This document shows positions 2,966 to 11,970 of a stretch of DNA of 20,182 nt, one piece after another (position 1 is the first letter of the stretch; each line of letters starts with the position of its first letter). The notes beneath the pieces were generated by a model. That model ran no database searches. It had not been told where the DNA came from and was given only the letters and a program-made list of their open reading frames with translations. A program made the translations under genes and the position numbers. This DNA comes from a virus, in the IMG/VR virus record IMGVR_UViG_3300034196_000052, positions 1-20,182 of that record. One strand, 5' to 3'.

Positions 2966-2995
2966 AGTATGACCGCCGGTATTGTTATCAGTCAA
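2966..2995 (-). promoter_or_regulatory. PR promoter for cro-cII-rha-O
   Basis: On the minus strand, -35 TTGACT (2990-2995), an 18-bp spacer and -10 CATACT (2966-2971). The spacer contains operator site 1 and the -35 overlaps site 2, so bound CI would block it. The same geometry recurs at the rightward promoter at 6395-6424. Confidence 0.75.
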
Positions 2996-3033
2996 TACCG
3001 GCGATATTGGTTAAGCAAATACCGTAGGTAATA
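2968..3033. promoter_or_regulatory. Three-site cI/cro operator (OR equivalent)
   Basis: Three 17-bp palindromes match the consensus CAATACCG-N-CGGTATTG. Site 1 (2968-2984) has a degenerate left half and a perfect right half. Site 2 (2993-3009) has a perfect left half and one mismatch on the right. Site 3 (3017-3033) is the weakest. Centres are at 2976, 3001 and 3025, so sites lie on the same DNA face two to two and a half turns apart. Sites 1 and 2 overlap PR, site 2 abuts the PRM -35 and site 3 covers the PRM -10, which is the lambda OR logic. Confidence 0.85.
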
Positions 3034-3043: not shown

Positions 3044-3844
3044 ATGAAAAAAGACTCCCGAAGGCTTCCTCTCTCTGATTGGCAGCTGCAAGACAGCGAA
3101 CGACTAAAGGCGATCTTCCATAAGAAGCGAGCTGATCTAGGCTTGACCCAAGAAAAGTTGGCAGCAGAGCTTGGTGACACCGTTACGCAAGGCGCGATCA
3201 GTCATTTTATGAACGGTAGAACCGCGCTTAGCATAAAGGCAGCCACCGTCTTTGCCAGGGCGCTGAAAGTTCCAGTTTCAGAGATCAGCCCTACGCTCGC
3301 TTCGCGCATCGAAGAGATGGCCTCATCCCTTGACCATGCAGGGCGAAAGTCAGCGGATACTCCAAAGGCTGCCGCTAACACGCCATTCCCTGTCGGCGAG
3401 GATGAGGGGGTCATTGATGATCGCTACGCCTTCATTCCTCAATACGACGCTAGAGCGGCCGCAGGCATTGGCCATGACAATCCGCACGTCGAGGTAAAGT
3501 CCACTCTGGCCTTCAAGCGCGAGTGGCTGCGCCTAAAGGGCGCAAACCCTGCAAGCCTGATCGTTATCTATGCCGATGGCGAGAGCATGTGGCCAACAAT
3601 TGATGATCATGATGTGCTGCTGCTGGACACGTCCAAGACTGATCCGGCGGATGGCCATGTCTTTGTCCTGGCAAATACGGACAAAGGGACAATCGTTAAG
3701 CGCCTCATAAAGCACGGCACCTCCTGGATCATCCAGAGCGACAACCCTGACGAAAATAAATATCCCGATATCGTGCTGCCTGATGGCGAGATCAACGAAC
3801 ACCGAATCATCGGTCGCGTCATCTGGCGCGGCGGAGATTTGTAG
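3044..3844 (+). CDS. cI: CI-type prophage repressor, S24 autopeptidase
   Basis: 266 aa. Residues ~17-80 are a Cro/C1-type helix-turn-helix (LGLTQEKLAAELG, then VTQGAISHFMNGRTALS). A linker (~90-125) precedes the S24/LexA-like peptidase domain. The catalytic serine is S181 in DGESMWPT and the lysine is K219 in GTIVKRL. The probable self-cleavage bond is A140-G141 in RAAAGIGH, 40 residues before the serine, as in lambda CI. It should therefore be inactivated after DNA damage through RecA. It is expressed from PRM with little or no leader. The downstream gene begins 15 bp after the stop, so the lysogenic transcript probably continues into it. Confidence 0.93.
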   Translation: MKKDSRRLPLSDWQLQDSERLKAIFHKKRADLGLTQEKLAAELGDTVTQGAISHFMNGRTALSIKAATVFARALKVPVSEISPTLASRIEEMASSLDHAGRKSADTPKAAANTPFPVGEDEGVIDDRYAFIPQYDARAAAGIGHDNPHVEVKSTLAFKREWLRLKGANPASLIVIYADGESMWPTIDDHDVLLLDTSKTDPADGHVFVLANTDKGTIVKRLIKHGTSWIIQSDNPDENKYPDIVLPDGEINEHRIIGRVIWRGGDL

Positions 3845-6380: not shown

Positions 6381-6423
6381 TATGACCGGAGGTATTGACC
6401 AACATACAATACCGGCGGTATTG
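6381..6423. promoter_or_regulatory. Two-site cI/cro operator (OL equivalent)
   Basis: Site A (6381-6397) is TATGACCG-G-AGGTATTG. Site B (6407-6423) is a perfect copy of the 17-bp consensus CAATACCG-G-CGGTATTG. Centres are 26 bp apart. The first eight bases of site A (TATGACCG) are identical to those of site 1 near cro. About 3.4 kb separates this pair from the OR-like cluster, a distance that allows CI-mediated looping as in lambda. Confidence 0.85.
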
Positions 6424-6424
6424 T
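6395..6424 (+). promoter_or_regulatory. PL-type early promoter for the rightward operon
   Basis: -35 TTGACC (6395-6400), 18-bp spacer, -10 TATTGT (6419-6424). Operator site A overlaps the -35 and the perfect site B spans the spacer and -10. This is the same promoter-operator design as PR at 2966-2995. Confidence 0.75.
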
Positions 6425-6474: not shown

Positions 6475-6546
6475 CGCTCTTTAAAAATTCAGAAGACGAT
6501 CCCGCTGCGGAAATAACAGCGGGGCCGCCTGTCCGGCAAGGACAGG
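6475..6546 (+). promoter_or_regulatory. nut/put-like antitermination site: boxA plus two hairpins
   Basis: About 45 bases into the PL transcript, CGCTCTTTAAAA (6475-6486) matches the bacterial/phage boxA consensus. Two perfect 7-bp hairpins follow. The first is CCCGCTG (6501-6507) / CAGCGGG (6517-6523) with a 9-base loop. The second is CCTGTCC (6528-6534) / GGACAGG (6540-6546) with the pentaloop GGCAA, close to the P22 boxB loop GACAA. Order and position fit a nut site. Two adjacent hairpins also recall the RNA-only put sites of HK022. No N-like protein is recognisable in the window. Confidence 0.6.
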
Positions 6547-6680: not shown

Positions 6681-6742
6681 GCGGATCGAGGGATACCGAA
6701 CTGGCGAATGATCCAGATATGCGTTGCGAGACAGATTTCCTC

Positions 6743-6791
6743 GATGCCCTTCTAACGAGGGGTATCAGGGAAATCAAACGGGAGTCACAAC
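6743..6791 (+). promoter_or_regulatory. Hairpin-plus-ribosome-site module, copy 1
   Basis: GATGCCC (6743-6749) pairs with GGGTATC (6760-6766, one G-U pair), extended by TTC/GAG inside. A purine-rich spacer (AGGGAAATCAAA) and CGGGAG then lead to the ATG at 6792. The hairpin loop side (TTCTAACGAG) and the spacer closely match copy 2 at 7910-7955. Confidence 0.6.
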
Positions 6792-7187
6792 ATGAGTGTT
6801 GATGCATACGCCGGGATCGACCCGGCACGGAAGCGCTGCTGCGCCGTTGGCGAGGTGGATGCCGATAGTGTGGTGGAGGCTTTGCGGGATGGCCTGATCG
6901 TCGTGCCGGTTTCGATCGAGACGGCCAGGCAGATTTGGGGGAGTGAGCCGGTTGATATCTACGCAATTGCCATTGGCGAAAACACAGCTCCCGCCAAGGT
7001 TGAAGGTCTGAGTGCTGAGCAGGTTGAACAAGTTCGTGAGGTAGTCCAGGAATTGGCGGAGAAAAGCGGCACCGACTTTGATGCCGCCTTTGAATCTGCA
7101 ATGGGCGTGATGAAGTATCACGCCATTGAATCCGTTCCTTGGGGTAAGAAGGCTGCAGGCGGATCAGGCGGGGTAAAGAAAGGCTGA
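6792..7187 (+). CDS. First PL-operon protein, unknown function
   Basis: 131 aa. The N-terminus MSVDAYAGIDPARKRCCAV looks like a beta hairpin. A central acidic helical part contains LSAEQVEQVREVVQELAEKSG, and the tail is Gly/Lys-rich (GKKAAGGSGGVKKG). There is no signal or membrane segment and no arginine-rich N-terminal motif like that of lambda N, so an antiterminator role is unsupported. The start is fixed by GGGAG eight bases before the ATG and by the hairpin module. Its 3' end overlaps the minus-strand DUF2622-like gene by 24 bp. I recognise it only as the kind of small early protein seen in Pseudomonas prophages. Confidence 0.75.
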   Translation: MSVDAYAGIDPARKRCCAVGEVDADSVVEALRDGLIVVPVSIETARQIWGSEPVDIYAIAIGENTAPAKVEGLSAEQVEQVREVVQELAEKSGTDFDAAFESAMGVMKYHAIESVPWGKKAAGGSGGVKKG

Positions 7188-7454
7188 CCATTCTTCATCT
7201 TTGATCTGGCATACAAAGATAGCAGCCTCCTTCTGGGGCGAAAGCGGATTAGCAAATGTCTTCACACGATCCCGTACTGAGGAAACGCTCAAGCCGCTGA
7301 GGCCAAAGTAAGTGCCAGAAGGCATCTGGCGTCTTGAGCCGTCAGAAAACGACACCTCTCTCTCGATCCCCGTTGCATCCATGTTGGCATGCAGCCGCTC
7401 GTAATCATCGGAACTCGCCCCGAACAGCTCAACACGCACCAAGTACTGCGCCAT
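7164..7454 (-). CDS. DUF2622/GhoS-like protein
   Basis: 96 aa from MAQYLVRVELFGASSDDYER, with AAGGA eight to nine bases before the ATG; the longer frame to 7559 would include the promoter palindromes. The opening R-V-E-L-x-G/N-A-x-x-x-D-Y-x-x-L-H pattern, FSDGSRRQMPSGTY and the C-terminal W-S-A-F are typical of DUF2622. This family is grouped with GhoS, the endoribonuclease antitoxin of the type V GhoT/GhoS system. It is the only clearly supported family gene against the direction of the PL operon, and it has its own promoter with flanking palindromes. No GhoT-like partner follows on its strand. Ribonuclease activity is untested inference; many phage members have unknown roles. Confidence 0.8.
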   Translation of the reverse strand: MAQYLVRVELFGASSDDYERLHANMDATGIEREVSFSDGSRRQMPSGTYFGLSGLSVSSVRDRVKTFANPLSPQKEAAIFVCQIKDEEWSAFLYPA

Positions 7455-7571: not shown

Positions 7572-7601
7572 CCGGCGACCGACGCCAGTAGCGGGTCACG
7601 G
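7572..7601 (+). repeat. CAGTA bulged hairpin, copy 1
   Basis: Loop CAGTA (7586-7590), upper stem CGC/GCG, a two-base 5' bulge GA (7581-7582), lower stem GACC (7577-7580) / GGTC (7594-7597), then CCG/CGG (7572-7574 / 7599-7601) across an internal loop. Confidence 0.6.
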
Positions 7602-7866
7602 CCAGCTCCAAAAGATTTGAATTAGCGATCCCGATAGCCTCGGCTGGGAACGCCGGACCTCATGCACCCTGCCCCACTCAATCAGGGCACTTAGAGCTGT
7701 AGCGTGCATGTTGTAAGGACCTGTGATCCACGGCGAACAGATGCTGTTTGACGCTGTGAGTAGGAAGCTCGAAGCCCGAACCCATGACGAACCGCCGACC
7801 TGCAATCAGCAGCGGGATACGCGGCGCCGCCCTAGCGAAGAGGGAGTCACCGCTGACGCAACAAAC

Positions 7867-7893
7867 CCAGGCCGCCGCCAGTAGCGGGCCTGG
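7867..7893 (+). repeat. CAGTA bulged hairpin, copy 2
   Basis: Loop CAGTA (7879-7883), upper stem CGC/GCG, two-base 5' bulge GC (7874-7875), lower stem CCAGGCC (7867-7873) / GGCCTGG (7887-7893), perfect over seven pairs. It has the same architecture as copy 1 with a different lower-stem sequence. Confidence 0.65.
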
Positions 7894-7909
7894 ACTCCAC
7901 ATATTTCTG

Positions 7910-7955
7910 ATGCCGCTTCTATGAGGCGGCATTGGAAATCAACGGAGGAAGTGAG
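7910..7955 (+). promoter_or_regulatory. Hairpin-plus-ribosome-site module, copy 2
   Basis: ATGCCGC (7910-7916) / GCGGCAT (7926-7932), extended inward by TTC/GAG. TGGAAATCAA, then CGGAGG and AAGTGAG lead to the ATG at 7956. Confidence 0.65.
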
Positions 7956-8393
7956 ATGGACAGATTTGGAAGCTTTCCGGAACAACTGATGACCTGCTTC
8001 ATGCTCGGTTTTCCGGTAGCAGGCTTAGTGTTAGGCGCCGTCGTCGTCGGCCTCGTCTGGCGAAAAGCCTGGGCCTGGATTGACGATGCGGAGGCCGGTC
8101 GAAACCCGGTGCTGGAGTTTATGGCGCGGCTGCGTGGATGGACGCCGTATACCACGGAGGGCAGCGGCTACCAATGGTGGAAAGACAAAAAGGACTCAAC
8201 GCAAACGGAGGTTCTGCTGCCGTTTCTTGGGCTGTTCTTTTTCTCCCCTCTCGCGGTCTTCCTCGCCATCAAGCTTTACCCAGTCGTCATTGGAGCCATG
8301 ACACTGGTTGCGGTCGCTTTTGTGGCTCGGTTCGCCCGCCGGCACAAGAAACTGTTCGACAAGCACCTGAAAGATCCCGAAGCACACAAATGA
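7956..8393 (+). CDS. Small inner-membrane protein of unknown function
   Basis: 145 aa. One membrane segment lies at about residues 12-35 (ending at W35-R36-K37), then a polar region of about 50 residues with GYQWWKDKKD. A second hydrophobic block at about 86-127 is long enough for two segments. The C-terminus is strongly basic (RFARRHKKLFDKHLKD) and should be cytoplasmic. The start has GGAGG seven bases upstream; the in-frame ATG at 7932 lies in the hairpin arm and is unlikely. It is an early gene between structured RNA modules, so a host-takeover or exclusion role is possible but unsupported. It does not resemble GhoT, which is about 57 aa. Confidence 0.8.
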   Translation: MDRFGSFPEQLMTCFMLGFPVAGLVLGAVVVGLVWRKAWAWIDDAEAGRNPVLEFMARLRGWTPYTTEGSGYQWWKDKKDSTQTEVLLPFLGLFFFSPLAVFLAIKLYPVVIGAMTLVAVAFVARFARRHKKLFDKHLKDPEAHK

Positions 8394-8408
8394 CGGACCT
8401 TTTCACTG

Positions 8409-8458
8409 ATGCCCATCCAGAGCGGTGGGCATTGGGAAAACAACCGGGAGTAAGTGAG
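8409..8458 (+). promoter_or_regulatory. Hairpin-plus-ribosome-site module, copy 3
   Basis: ATGCCCA (8409-8415) / TGGGCAT (8426-8432), a bulged T, CC/GG and loop AGAGC. TGGGAAAACAACC, GGGAG and TAAGTGAG lead to the ATG at 8459. The segment after the hairpin is close to that of copy 2. Confidence 0.65.
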
Positions 8459-8983
8459 ATGGCCTACTACAAGACAAGCGATGCCGGAGTTCTGGCGGCT
8501 TGGAAGGCGTACAGAGAAAGCGCGGATCGTTTGCAGGTGCTGGGCGAAGAGTTCGCCAATCGGTTTGTAGGCGCCACCGCACTGTTCCAGACCAGCATGC
8601 ACAGCGGTCGTAACTTCTACGGCCTGAAGTTCAGCCCACCAATGCCACAGCCGCTGTGGACGAAGCCAGACCCAAAGGCAGATAGCTCGCAGTTCCCGCG
8701 CTCAAGTCTGCCGCCGGGCACCAAGGGCGAAGAGCGGAAGGCGTTGAAGCTTGAGCTGCACAAGCTGCAAGAAGAATTCAAGGAGCATAAGCCGAAGGAC
8801 AAAGCGGACCTCCAGCCGTTCCTCGACGCAATGGGCCTTGGCGGTGGTTCGCTGTTCTTCTCCAGTTACAAGCATGTGGTCGCGCCTGACTGCATCTACG
8901 TCAGCACGTCCGCCAAGCCGAATGGTGTGATGACCGAAATCCTCGGCAGCGAGTACGAAGCCGCTGAAGCCGCAAACAACTGA
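8459..8983 (+). CDS. Soluble early phage protein of unknown function
   Basis: 174 aa from MAYYKTSDAGVLAAWKAYRE, the start being set by the GGGAG/GTGAG leader it shares with the previous gene. A helical N-terminus (about 10-45) is followed by a Pro-rich segment (SPPMPQPLWTKPDPKAD), then a charged helix (GEERKALKLELHKLQEEFKEH) that may form a short coiled coil. The C-terminal beta part contains LFFSSYKHVVAPDCIYVSTS. No enzyme motif or membrane segment is visible. The gene lies 65 bp after the membrane-protein gene. Not recognised beyond a general phage hypothetical. Confidence 0.78.
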   Translation: MAYYKTSDAGVLAAWKAYRESADRLQVLGEEFANRFVGATALFQTSMHSGRNFYGLKFSPPMPQPLWTKPDPKADSSQFPRSSLPPGTKGEERKALKLELHKLQEEFKEHKPKDKADLQPFLDAMGLGGGSLFFSSYKHVVAPDCIYVSTSAKPNGVMTEILGSEYEAAEAANN

Positions 8984-9036
8984 ACAACCAGCGCCACGAC
9001 AGCCTGTCGTTAACTGCCCGATCCTCTCTATGAGAG

Positions 9037-9220
9037 CGCATCTGGGTGTGATCTTCAATCCAGCGGGCGCGGCCTTCGGGCGACATGAGCAGGTAGCGCT
9101 GCTCAGCAGCTAAAACGCAAATGAGCGGGCCGGTGCGAGCTCCGGCTGCCAAGGATGTCGTGGATAGCAGCCTTGGATACCCCGAGATGGCGATTGACCA
9201 CAAGATCACACCCAGATGCG
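9037..9220 (+). repeat. 19-bp perfect inverted repeat closing a 146-base domain
   Basis: CGCATCTGGGTGTGATCTT (9037-9055) is the exact reverse complement of 9202-9220. Five more pairs, CAATC (9056-9060) / GATTG (9192-9196), continue the stem after a 5-base bulge on the right. Confidence 0.75.
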
Positions 9221-9277
9221 GACGACCACTACACCCCGCGCAAAGCGGCCCCCTGCATCACACCTATGACGACCTAC

Positions 9278-9306
9278 CCCGATCCGTAGCCAGTAGCTGG
9301 ACCGGG
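9278..9306 (+). repeat. CAGTA bulged hairpin, copy 3
   Basis: Loop CAGTA (9291-9295), upper stem AGC/GCT, two-base 5' bulge GT (9286-9287), lower stem TCC/GGA, an A-C mismatch, then CCCG (9278-9281) / CGGG (9303-9306). Upper and lower stems differ from copies 1 and 2 by compensating changes. Confidence 0.65.
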
Positions 9307-9656: not shown

Positions 9657-9686
9657 AAAGCCCGGGCAATGTTCGGGCTTTTTATT
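9657..9686 (+). terminator. Intrinsic terminator inside the PL operon
   Basis: AAGCCCG (9658-9664) / CGGGCTT (9674-9680) with a 9-base loop, extended by A-T pairs and followed by TTTTTATT. Genes continue on the same strand only 30 bases later with no new promoter evident, so it probably requires readthrough or antitermination. Confidence 0.82.
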
Positions 9687-9714
9687 GAGCACGCAAACAA
9701 CGGAGCAAGACGAT

Positions 9715-9909: not shown

Positions 9910-10062
9910 CCAACCCCGCCCACCTCAAGCCCCTTAACTGGGGCTCCAAACTCACACCCGCCTCTATTACGTCAGCACTCCCCCCCCGCGCCCATCGGCA
10001 ACCAGCGGGAGGCATGAGTGTTGACGAATACAGGTGAACAACCCGCCAAACTGGAGGCGATC
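9910..10062 (+). other. Intergenic stretch with hairpins, a C-run and a 7-codon leader ORF
   Basis: AGCCCC/GGGGCT (9928-9933 / 9940-9945) is a stem without a T-tract. Eight C in a row occur at 9980-9987. CCCGC (9985-9989) can pair with GCGGG (10005-10009), which is part of a GCGGGAGG ribosome site before ATG 10014. That ATG opens only MSVDEYR and then TGA (10035-10037). Its first codons echo MSVDAY of the gene at 6792, so it may be the stub of a lost paralogue or a leader peptide for the gene at 10063. Confidence 0.4.
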
Positions 10063-10329
10063 ATGATCCAAAGTCACCAAGCTCACTGCGATGTAGCACT
10101 TGCAATGAACCAGCGCCGCAATATGTCCTTGGCCCTTTGTCTTGGGCTGGTCGGCTCCAGCACGCCAAAGAGCTCCCCCCGCTACCGTGTAGTTCCAGCG
10201 GGCCACGAGTTCTTCCACGTCGTCGAAGCCACCACTGGAAAGGTGAAGGGGTTCCGTCGCAATCACAACGAAGCCTGTGCCCTCGCCCGCTCCCTGGAGT
10301 CGCGTCATGCAAACAAGCTACGCGGATAG
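10063..10329 (+). CDS. 88-aa protein of unknown function
   Basis: Starts MIQSHQAHCDVALAMNQRRN at an ATG with GGAGG five bases upstream, preferred to a GTG at 10018. The C-terminal half (YRVVPAGHEFFHVVEATTGK, then GFRRNHNEACALARSLE) reads as a beta hairpin followed by a helix, a layout seen in several small phage early proteins of unknown role. Its last 23 bases overlap the next gene, so translation is coupled. Confidence 0.72.
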   Translation: MIQSHQAHCDVALAMNQRRNMSLALCLGLVGSSTPKSSPRYRVVPAGHEFFHVVEATTGKVKGFRRNHNEACALARSLESRHANKLRG

Positions 10330-10815: not shown

Positions 10816-11970
10816 ATGTCCAAAAATACCAATCAAGCACTCGCACAAGAATCGCTCGAAACATCTGAGGCTCAAGAAGTACATAAATCTGTAGCGCCTG
10901 CTGTTTCGATCACCGACATCGTCGAATATCAACCGCATGAAGAGCAGATCGTTCGCCTGGAGACCACCTACGCGAAGCTGGTCGTTGATTGCTCGACGAG
11001 CGAAGGCTTGGCAAATGCCAAAGAGGTTCGCGTTGACATCCGCGACGTGCGCTATGCCCTGGCGAACACCACCAAGACAGCACTGGTGCCATACCAGCAG
11101 AAGGTGAAAGAAGCGCAGGCCCGAGTTAATCAGGTCAAGGATTTTGGCGAGGCGTTGAAGGCCCGAGTTTTGGTCCTGGAAGAGCCAGTTGATGAAGCCA
11201 TCAAAGCCGAAGAAAAGCGTATCGCCGATGCGAAGGCCGAGAAGGAGCGCCTTGAGCAAGAGCGCATCGAAGCCATCCGGGCAAAAATCAACCGCTTCAG
11301 CGCTGTCGCTGCCGCCTATGCAAGCCGAAGCGCAGCCGACGTTTCTAACATCCTGCAGGGCGTCAAGGAAGCGGTGATCCTGCCCGAGGAGTATGGCGAG
11401 TTTGAAGCTGAAGCCACCATCGCTCGCGACAACGCGATTGATCAGCTAGAAGTGCTGCACAAGTCTGCCCTGGAGCGCGAAGCGGCCGCCGAAAAGCTAC
11501 TGGCCCAGCAAAAGGAGCTTGATGAGCTGCGCGAGAAGCAGCGAATCGCCGACGCCGAGGCTGAAGAGCTGCGCAAACAACGCGCAGAAGAAGACCGCAA
11601 GCGCTTGAAGCAGCAACAGGATGAGTTGGACCAGCAGCGCCGTGACATGGAGGCTCAGCAACGTCGGCAGCGTGAGGAGCAGGAAGAGCAACAACGCCAG
11701 CAGCGCGAGCGCGAGGCACAGTATCAGCGCGACCAGGAAGAGCTGGCCCGTCTGCGCGCCCAGGCTGCCGCGCCTGCTCCAGTAACGGCTGTCGCTCCAA
11801 TCGAACAGAAAGTTGAAACTGCCCCTGCGGCAGTCGCCGTCGCCTCCATTGCATCCATCGACGTAGACCCGACTACACCCCCGGCTGAAGAAATTGTCGA
11901 AGTGGTCGCCCTGGGCTTCGACGTTGACATCGACACCGCTCGCACTTGGCTGCGTGCCCTCAGCTTCTAA
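10816..11970 (+). CDS. Coiled-coil protein associated with the RecT module (DUF1351-like)
   Basis: 384 aa from MSKNTNQALAQESLETSEAQ, with GAGGG six bases before ATG; the upstream in-frame ATG (10786) lacks a site. The N-terminal ~90 residues form a globular part with VRVDIRDVRYALANTTK. A first charged coiled coil spans about 92-162 (EEKRIADAKAEKERLEQERI). A conserved-looking segment follows (~165-205), and a long Gln/Arg/Glu-rich coiled coil spans about 208-316. An Ala/Pro linker leads to a small C-terminal domain (VVALGFDVDIDTARTWL). The layout matches the long helical proteins that precede RecT in many phages. A scaffold or assembly role is inferred. It is not a membrane protein. Confidence 0.75.
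   Translation: MSKNTNQALAQESLETSEAQEVHKSVAPAVSITDIVEYQPHEEQIVRLETTYAKLVVDCSTSEGLANAKEVRVDIRDVRYALANTTKTALVPYQQKVKEAQARVNQVKDFGEALKARVLVLEEPVDEAIKAEEKRIADAKAEKERLEQERIEAIRAKINRFSAVAAAYASRSAADVSNILQGVKEAVILPEEYGEFEAEATIARDNAIDQLEVLHKSALEREAAAEKLLAQQKELDELREKQRIADAEAEELRKQRAEEDRKRLKQQQDELDQQRRDMEAQQRRQREEQEEQQRQQREREAQYQRDQEELARLRAQAAAPAPVTAVAPIEQKVETAPAAVAVASIASIDVDPTTPPAEEIVEVVALGFDVDIDTARTWLRALSF

Follow-up and report, generated by a model that had tools for sequence, protein, structure and literature searches.

Which described RNAs does this leader resemble? In phage lambda, the nut site of the early-left leader lies next to PL and places a boxA 5′ of a small hairpin, boxB, whose GNRA-like pentaloop follows close behind; it has a cognate protein, N, and occurs in both the PL and the PR operon. 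Untranslated rrn leaders likewise carry a boxA motif, and rrn-type boxA antitermination confers Rho resistance dependent on NusB/S10. GOLLD and ROOL are large structured RNAs carried by phages. The put RNA of phage HK022 binds the β′ zinc-binding domain of RNA polymerase. It is about 70 nt long, forms two stems, is present at PL and PR, and suppresses terminators without a phage protein (PMC9378689).

Here, we analysed a window of 20,182 nt (the whole stretch of DNA under study, positions 1 to 20,182 of the IMG/VR record IMGVR_UViG_3300034196_000052), in which a bulged hairpin with a CAGTA loop is a genuine, covarying RNA element of the PL operon (Table 1). A 29-nt covariance model (R1), built from 38 sequences and composed of an 8-bp lower stem, a 2-nt 5′ bulge, a 3-bp upper stem and a 5-nt loop, returned exactly three matches in the window (E 4e-8 to 2e-7, filters off), scores that partly reflect construction, as copies 2 and 3 are members of R1 and the 29-mer of copy 1 is identical to one already inside it; the next-best match had an E of 0.3. 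The three + strand copies proposed by the first-pass annotation are therefore borne out to within a base or two, and so is their anatomy: the CAGTA loop, an upper stem of 3 bp (CGC/GCG or AGC/GCT), a two-base 5′ bulge starting with G (GA, GC or GT) and a covarying lower stem. For copy 2, the lower stem of 7 bp first given was correct; those of copies 1 and 3 extend, mismatches included, beyond the lengths first given. A fourth, variant copy claimed at 7629-7649 was rejected because R1 recovers nothing there, even at E 10 with filters off. The window contains four occurrences of the motif GCCAGTAGC, where 0.18 would be expected from shuffles, and 0 of 100 shuffles reach that number; three are the + strand hairpin copies, and the fourth is a minus-strand occurrence within an ORF (11496-11504). 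Two things speak for the view that all copies fall in a non-coding stretch of the PL transcript: the operator/promoter and boxA upstream, and the fact that structure is conserved and a reading frame is not. Resemblances of the hairpin to a kink-turn, a CsrA site or an IRE are presumably superficial and were dropped.

Table 1. Coordinates of the leader elements in the window
Feature	Position	Strand	Remarks
PL promoter-like site overlapping operator CAATACCGGCGGTATTG (6407-6423)	6395..6424	+	Inferred from position downstream of cI
boxA-like GCTCTTTAAAAATT in PL leader	6476..6489	+	Same place in related leaders
CAGTA hairpin copy 1	7573..7601	+	R1 44.4 bits, E 4.2e-8
Module B, conserved untranslated RNA module	7620..7830	+	88 distinct loci by independent pattern
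CAGTA hairpin copy 2, 3′ end of module B	7866..7894	+	R1 42.9 bits, E 9.2e-8
Module E, sequence 5′ of copy 3	9201..9277	+	Common to window, L035 and L107
CAGTA hairpin copy 3, AGC/GCT upper stem	9278..9306	+	R1 41.4 bits, E 2e-7
Intrinsic terminator in PL operon	9658..9688	+	Downstream of the three hairpins, upstream of RecT/YqaJ recombination genes

How widely does the hairpin occur? The pattern CCGNNGCCAGTAGCNGG recurs in at least 120 stretches of IMG/VR and, among the matches listed, those in Pseudomonas-like contigs mostly have long paired lower stems. R1 matches 53 of 299 sampled genomes of Pseudomonas (the genus to which G001, P. marginalis, belongs), mostly with one to three copies per genome; eight carrier genomes searched whole hold one to three copies each, which fits the expectation for a prophage element. 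At the level of the order, G001 alone matches among 195 sampled genomes (0/194 for the others), a result that covers these 195 and is compatible with occurrence elsewhere. Scores for L192 (Stutzerimonas) and L158 were weak. Homologues with covarying stems are many in Pseudomonas (pro)phages, in keeping with the covariation first described from the window copies. In this phage form, two-sided (compensatory) changes affect 7 of 11 pairs, and 64 two-sided changed cells compare with 22 ± 3 in shuffles and with 1-14 when the pairing was slid as a control. The alignment is 91% paired, a value that, like the invariance of the loop, is inflated because the selection pattern fixes the inner bases and a pairing filter was applied. 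Two sets are free of that selection, namely loci fetched via flanking modules only and a tailocin set with unconstrained stems. Rfam 15 gave no match at gathering threshold in the window and 11 related loci, nor for any leader module, and a permissive search of the PL region returned a single weak match, at a terminator, with nothing in the leader. This agrees with the initial impression that no named motif fits, and it separates the RNA from GOLLD and ROOL, as does its being the modular leader of a protein-coding operon.

The sequences 5′ of the hairpin group into modules A, B, C and D and further, smaller families; these are unrelated to one another, exchangeable and highly conserved, and each ends in the hairpin. 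Module A folds into a domain of several hairpins with some compensatory changes, and some leaders carry two tandem units. In motif-independent searches, the core GNNGCCAGTAGC stood at the expected place after module A in 64 of 78 distinct loci and after module B in 70 of 88, and the hairpin lies nearly always inside a boxA-containing PL leader, so that the early suggestion of a unit of a larger RNA gains weight. Module B had 48 matches in the first loci, 47 of them with a CAGTA hairpin downstream, and the gap to the hairpin is 41-48 nt in most loci. About a fifth of the module A/B loci lack a canonical hairpin: the CAGTA loop is retained within another stem, loop or stem bear single-base changes (CAGAA, CAGCA, CAGTT; CTC for CGC), or there is no hairpin at all.

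Other non-coding elements neighbour these modules. Just upstream of copy 3, a perfect 19-nt inverted repeat (9037-9055 / 9202-9220) encloses 146 nt of non-coding DNA; both repeat ends match the window in L035 and the middle differs, which suggests that the enclosed stretch may be an exchangeable domain. A second recurrent RNA-like element stands before genes at 8390-8455 and at about 7905-7940 and 6735-6770, with an outer stem, an internal loop (often ACTGA / TTGGG) and an inner stem, followed by a Shine-Dalgarno sequence and ATG; the 8390-8455 copy has 35 matches among 227 hairpin contexts. Pairing of the CAGUA loop with the downstream 5′UTR hairpin (ACTG) was discarded, since on inspection it is not conserved. 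At 9961-10060, a conserved leader (GTCAGCACTC...GAGTGTTGAC) precedes the phrog_6742 gene at 10063 and is covered by at most about 60 matches in the 227 contexts.

In the window, the order after cI (3044-3844) is two other + strand ORFs, a terminator (6339), the promoter-like site with its cI-type operator, whose sequence CAATACCGGCGGTATTG resembles repeats at 2974-3003 beside cI/cro, and boxA, the only site with an exact GCTCTTTAA. Two inserted genes, one of them in opposite orientation, separate boxA from copy 1; in this interval, a small gene (phrog_8894, function unknown; 7167-7454, minus strand) runs against the PL transcript. Related loci present operator/promoter, short GC hairpins, boxA, structured module, CAGTA hairpin, second 5′UTR hairpin and start codon in this order, with boxA as GCTCTTTAACA, GCTCTTTAG or GTTCTTTAACA. 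The form GCTCTTTAACA matches the rrn-type element, and the GC hairpins 5′ of it parallel those of rrn leaders; different from rrn, phage-specific modules and the CAGTA hairpin follow boxA, and phage or tailocin operons are driven. Under a strict regular expression, 54 of 149 hairpin copies have a boxA on their own strand in the preceding 3.5 kb, compared with one that has it downstream and three that have it on the opposite strand. A looser expression places boxA 5′ of the hairpin in 12 of 13 near-complete prophages; the near-complete carrier G518 has no recognisable boxA, and none was seen in an evident PR leader among the 13. For most hairpins, boxA is 170 nt to 3 kb away, and additional copies come without a separate boxA. 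In five loci, boxA starts just 36-37 nt ahead of the loop, a nut-like geometry. Every R1 copy is on a single strand in 38 of 38 records, in which none was found on the other strand or in the rightward (PR) operon.

R1 had no match in lambda (34000-39500), D3 (1-49999), MD8 or HK022 (20000-40751). The P. aeruginosa phages D3 and MD8 have boxA-bearing untranslated PL leaders of different sequence (L485, minus strand, about 45000-44640; L483, 4590-5200); boxA leaders may therefore be general among Pseudomonas lambdoid phages. In UFJF_PfDIW6, a CDS annotated antisense over the structured PL leader (UNY42246; L246 5804-6319, minus strand) is probably not a real gene.

The leader also occurs outside prophages, in the clusters for R-tailocins, weapons of the phage-tail type encoded on many Pseudomonas chromosomes; these copies, like boxA and the modular build, had escaped the first-pass annotation. 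The module A search matched the R-tailocin region of P. fluorescens Q8r1-96 (EU982300), where prtR, boxA GCTCTTTAG, module A and a variant hairpin (GATC-CGTACC-GCGC-CAGTC-GCGC-CGAAA-GATC) follow one another. This leader, with its CAGTA or CAGTC hairpin, sits between prtR and the holin gene and matches, whole or in part, 57 of 99 sampled Pseudomonas genomes, a count that includes a few prophage module A matches. PrtR adjoins it in 30 of 30 distinct tailocin loci examined, and the holin lies inside the examined 3.2 kb in most. The tailocin hairpin has an internal loop in place of the 2-nt bulge and is thus a variant, not an identical copy. Its 4-bp lower stem covaries (GATC/GATC, GAAC/GTTC, GACT/AGTC, GGTC/GACC, GGAC/GTCC, GACC/GGTC), and in one type the upper stem changes from GCGC/GCGC to GCAC/GTGC; with stems unconstrained in the search, 97.6% of cells are paired, and 20 two-sided cells compare with 5 ± 2.

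What might such a leader do? Of 68 phage loci, 18 have an intrinsic terminator on the hairpin strand in the 3 kb that follow the last copy, and 7 have one on the opposite strand; tailocin clusters have two to three internal sense-strand terminators each versus none or one antisense; EU982300 has one between the sheath and tube genes. Unless internal promoters exist, distal expression from the leader promoter thus needs read-through. Our leading interpretation, which we hold tentatively and at a little under even confidence, is a boxA-type processive antitermination leader whose hairpin docks a host factor or RNA polymerase, and we think that the hairpin helps polymerase to read through long operons. 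boxA in the nascent RNA would recruit NusB-S10 and other Nus factors, and the module and the CAGTA hairpin, with its near-invariant loop, 3-bp upper stem and 5′ bulge starting with G, would add a contact with a host factor or with polymerase itself. Polymerase would then stay terminator-resistant in cis along the operon, and the chromosomal R-tailocin operon would be preceded by the same device. Structure, recurrence, position, boxA association, tailocin copies and internal terminators are observed; from them we infer the binding partner and the antitermination activity. Antitermination would account for the position and strand of the leader, for its independence of the genes that follow, for its reuse in tailocins and for the internal terminators.

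As the 3′ end of several unrelated modules that are exchangeable and highly conserved, the hairpin might instead be a boundary, processing or stability element that closes each module and blocks or guides RNases, its effect being the release of the leader as a stable ncRNA with a function of its own, for instance as a decoy or regulator. In a few phage loci, a terminator 31-33 nt beyond the hairpin would free just such a discrete RNA. We consider this unlikely: a generic boundary needs no near-invariant loop and bulge, and the boxA association and the presence in tailocin operons point to elongation.

A strict nut site, with the hairpin as boxB for a phage N-like peptide too diverged for BLAST or Pfam, seems improbable. 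The PL leader position and the minimal loci, in which the hairpin comes about 15 nt behind boxA, are what such a site predicts, and the early-left location next to PL and the order of boxA and small hairpin are shared with lambda, as is the close spacing in five loci. Unlike boxB, the Pseudomonas hairpin has a CAGTA loop and a 5′ bulge and usually lies far from boxA; in contrast to nut, it occurs in several copies per leader and in tailocin operons, and a PR copy is absent. R-tailocin leaders adjoin only few and variable regulatory genes. BLAST found no ORF family common to all 13 near-complete prophages (the best families reach 11), a search that small diverged proteins could escape. N36 (PF11438) was found in 0 of 14 records, a weak test, as the model has 35 positions and stayed below cut-off in every control genome too, and the PL-operon proteins of the window that were tested are of unknown function or without match, none being N-like. 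The first-pass annotation's reading of the hairpin as the binding site of an RNA-binding protein may still hold; the lack of a family common to all 13 carriers speaks against a dedicated phage protein and favours a host factor or RNA polymerase as the putative partner.

Could the hairpin control translation, or act post-transcriptionally on the first downstream gene, via a host protein that binds RNA, for example a ribosomal protein or an RNA chaperone? A start codon and the second 5′UTR hairpin often follow within about 60-150 nt. Set against this, the downstream genes differ widely, the distance varies, and some hairpins lie far from any gene, in leaders with two tandem units; we regard such control as quite improbable. 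A riboswitch or gene-specific element was likewise rejected because the first genes are too diverse, and this diversity, together with the lack of an ORF family common to all 13 prophages, argues for a role at the operon level. In L027 and L242, the gene directly after the leader hairpin encodes a CsrA/RsmA-like protein. That the hairpin is incidental to a DNA-level boundary promoting recombination between mosaic modules is highly improbable: mosaic flanks and the place of the hairpin at the borders between modules fit it, but stem sequences change with pairing kept, which removes the sequence identity that a recombination joint needs, and the element always follows the transcribed strand and is retained in chromosomal tailocins.

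Antitermination has evidence to face as well, namely the distant boxA, the extra copies without boxA, the lack of a PR copy, G518, the fifth of module A/B loci without canonical hairpin, the boxA-bearing PL leaders of D3 and MD8 that have no hairpin, a loop unlike known boxB loops, and the N-family protein not found. Like put, the leader is a structured RNA just downstream of PL with no obvious dedicated phage protein; unlike put, it is longer, modular and boxA-bearing. We therefore suppose that it works like nut or put, while it departs from the defining features of both in its loop, the lack of a PR copy, the N protein not found, and the lack of similarity to put. Whether boxA, exchangeable modules and the CAGUA hairpin, acting with host Nus factors or with RNA polymerase alone and without a phage protein in prophages and R-tailocins, form a new RNA-encoded class of antitermination is a bolder claim, and a doubtful one at present.

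In the open-access literature, we found no paper describing this leader and no account of antitermination in the early operons of Pseudomonas lambdoid phages or of read-through in chromosomal R-tailocin operons, which span about 20 kb and contain internal terminators. The covariance model serves to annotate leaders that are now left blank or mis-called as genes, as with the antisense CDS of UFJF_PfDIW6. One conserved, covarying leader shared by prophages and tailocins makes the question of read-through directly testable.
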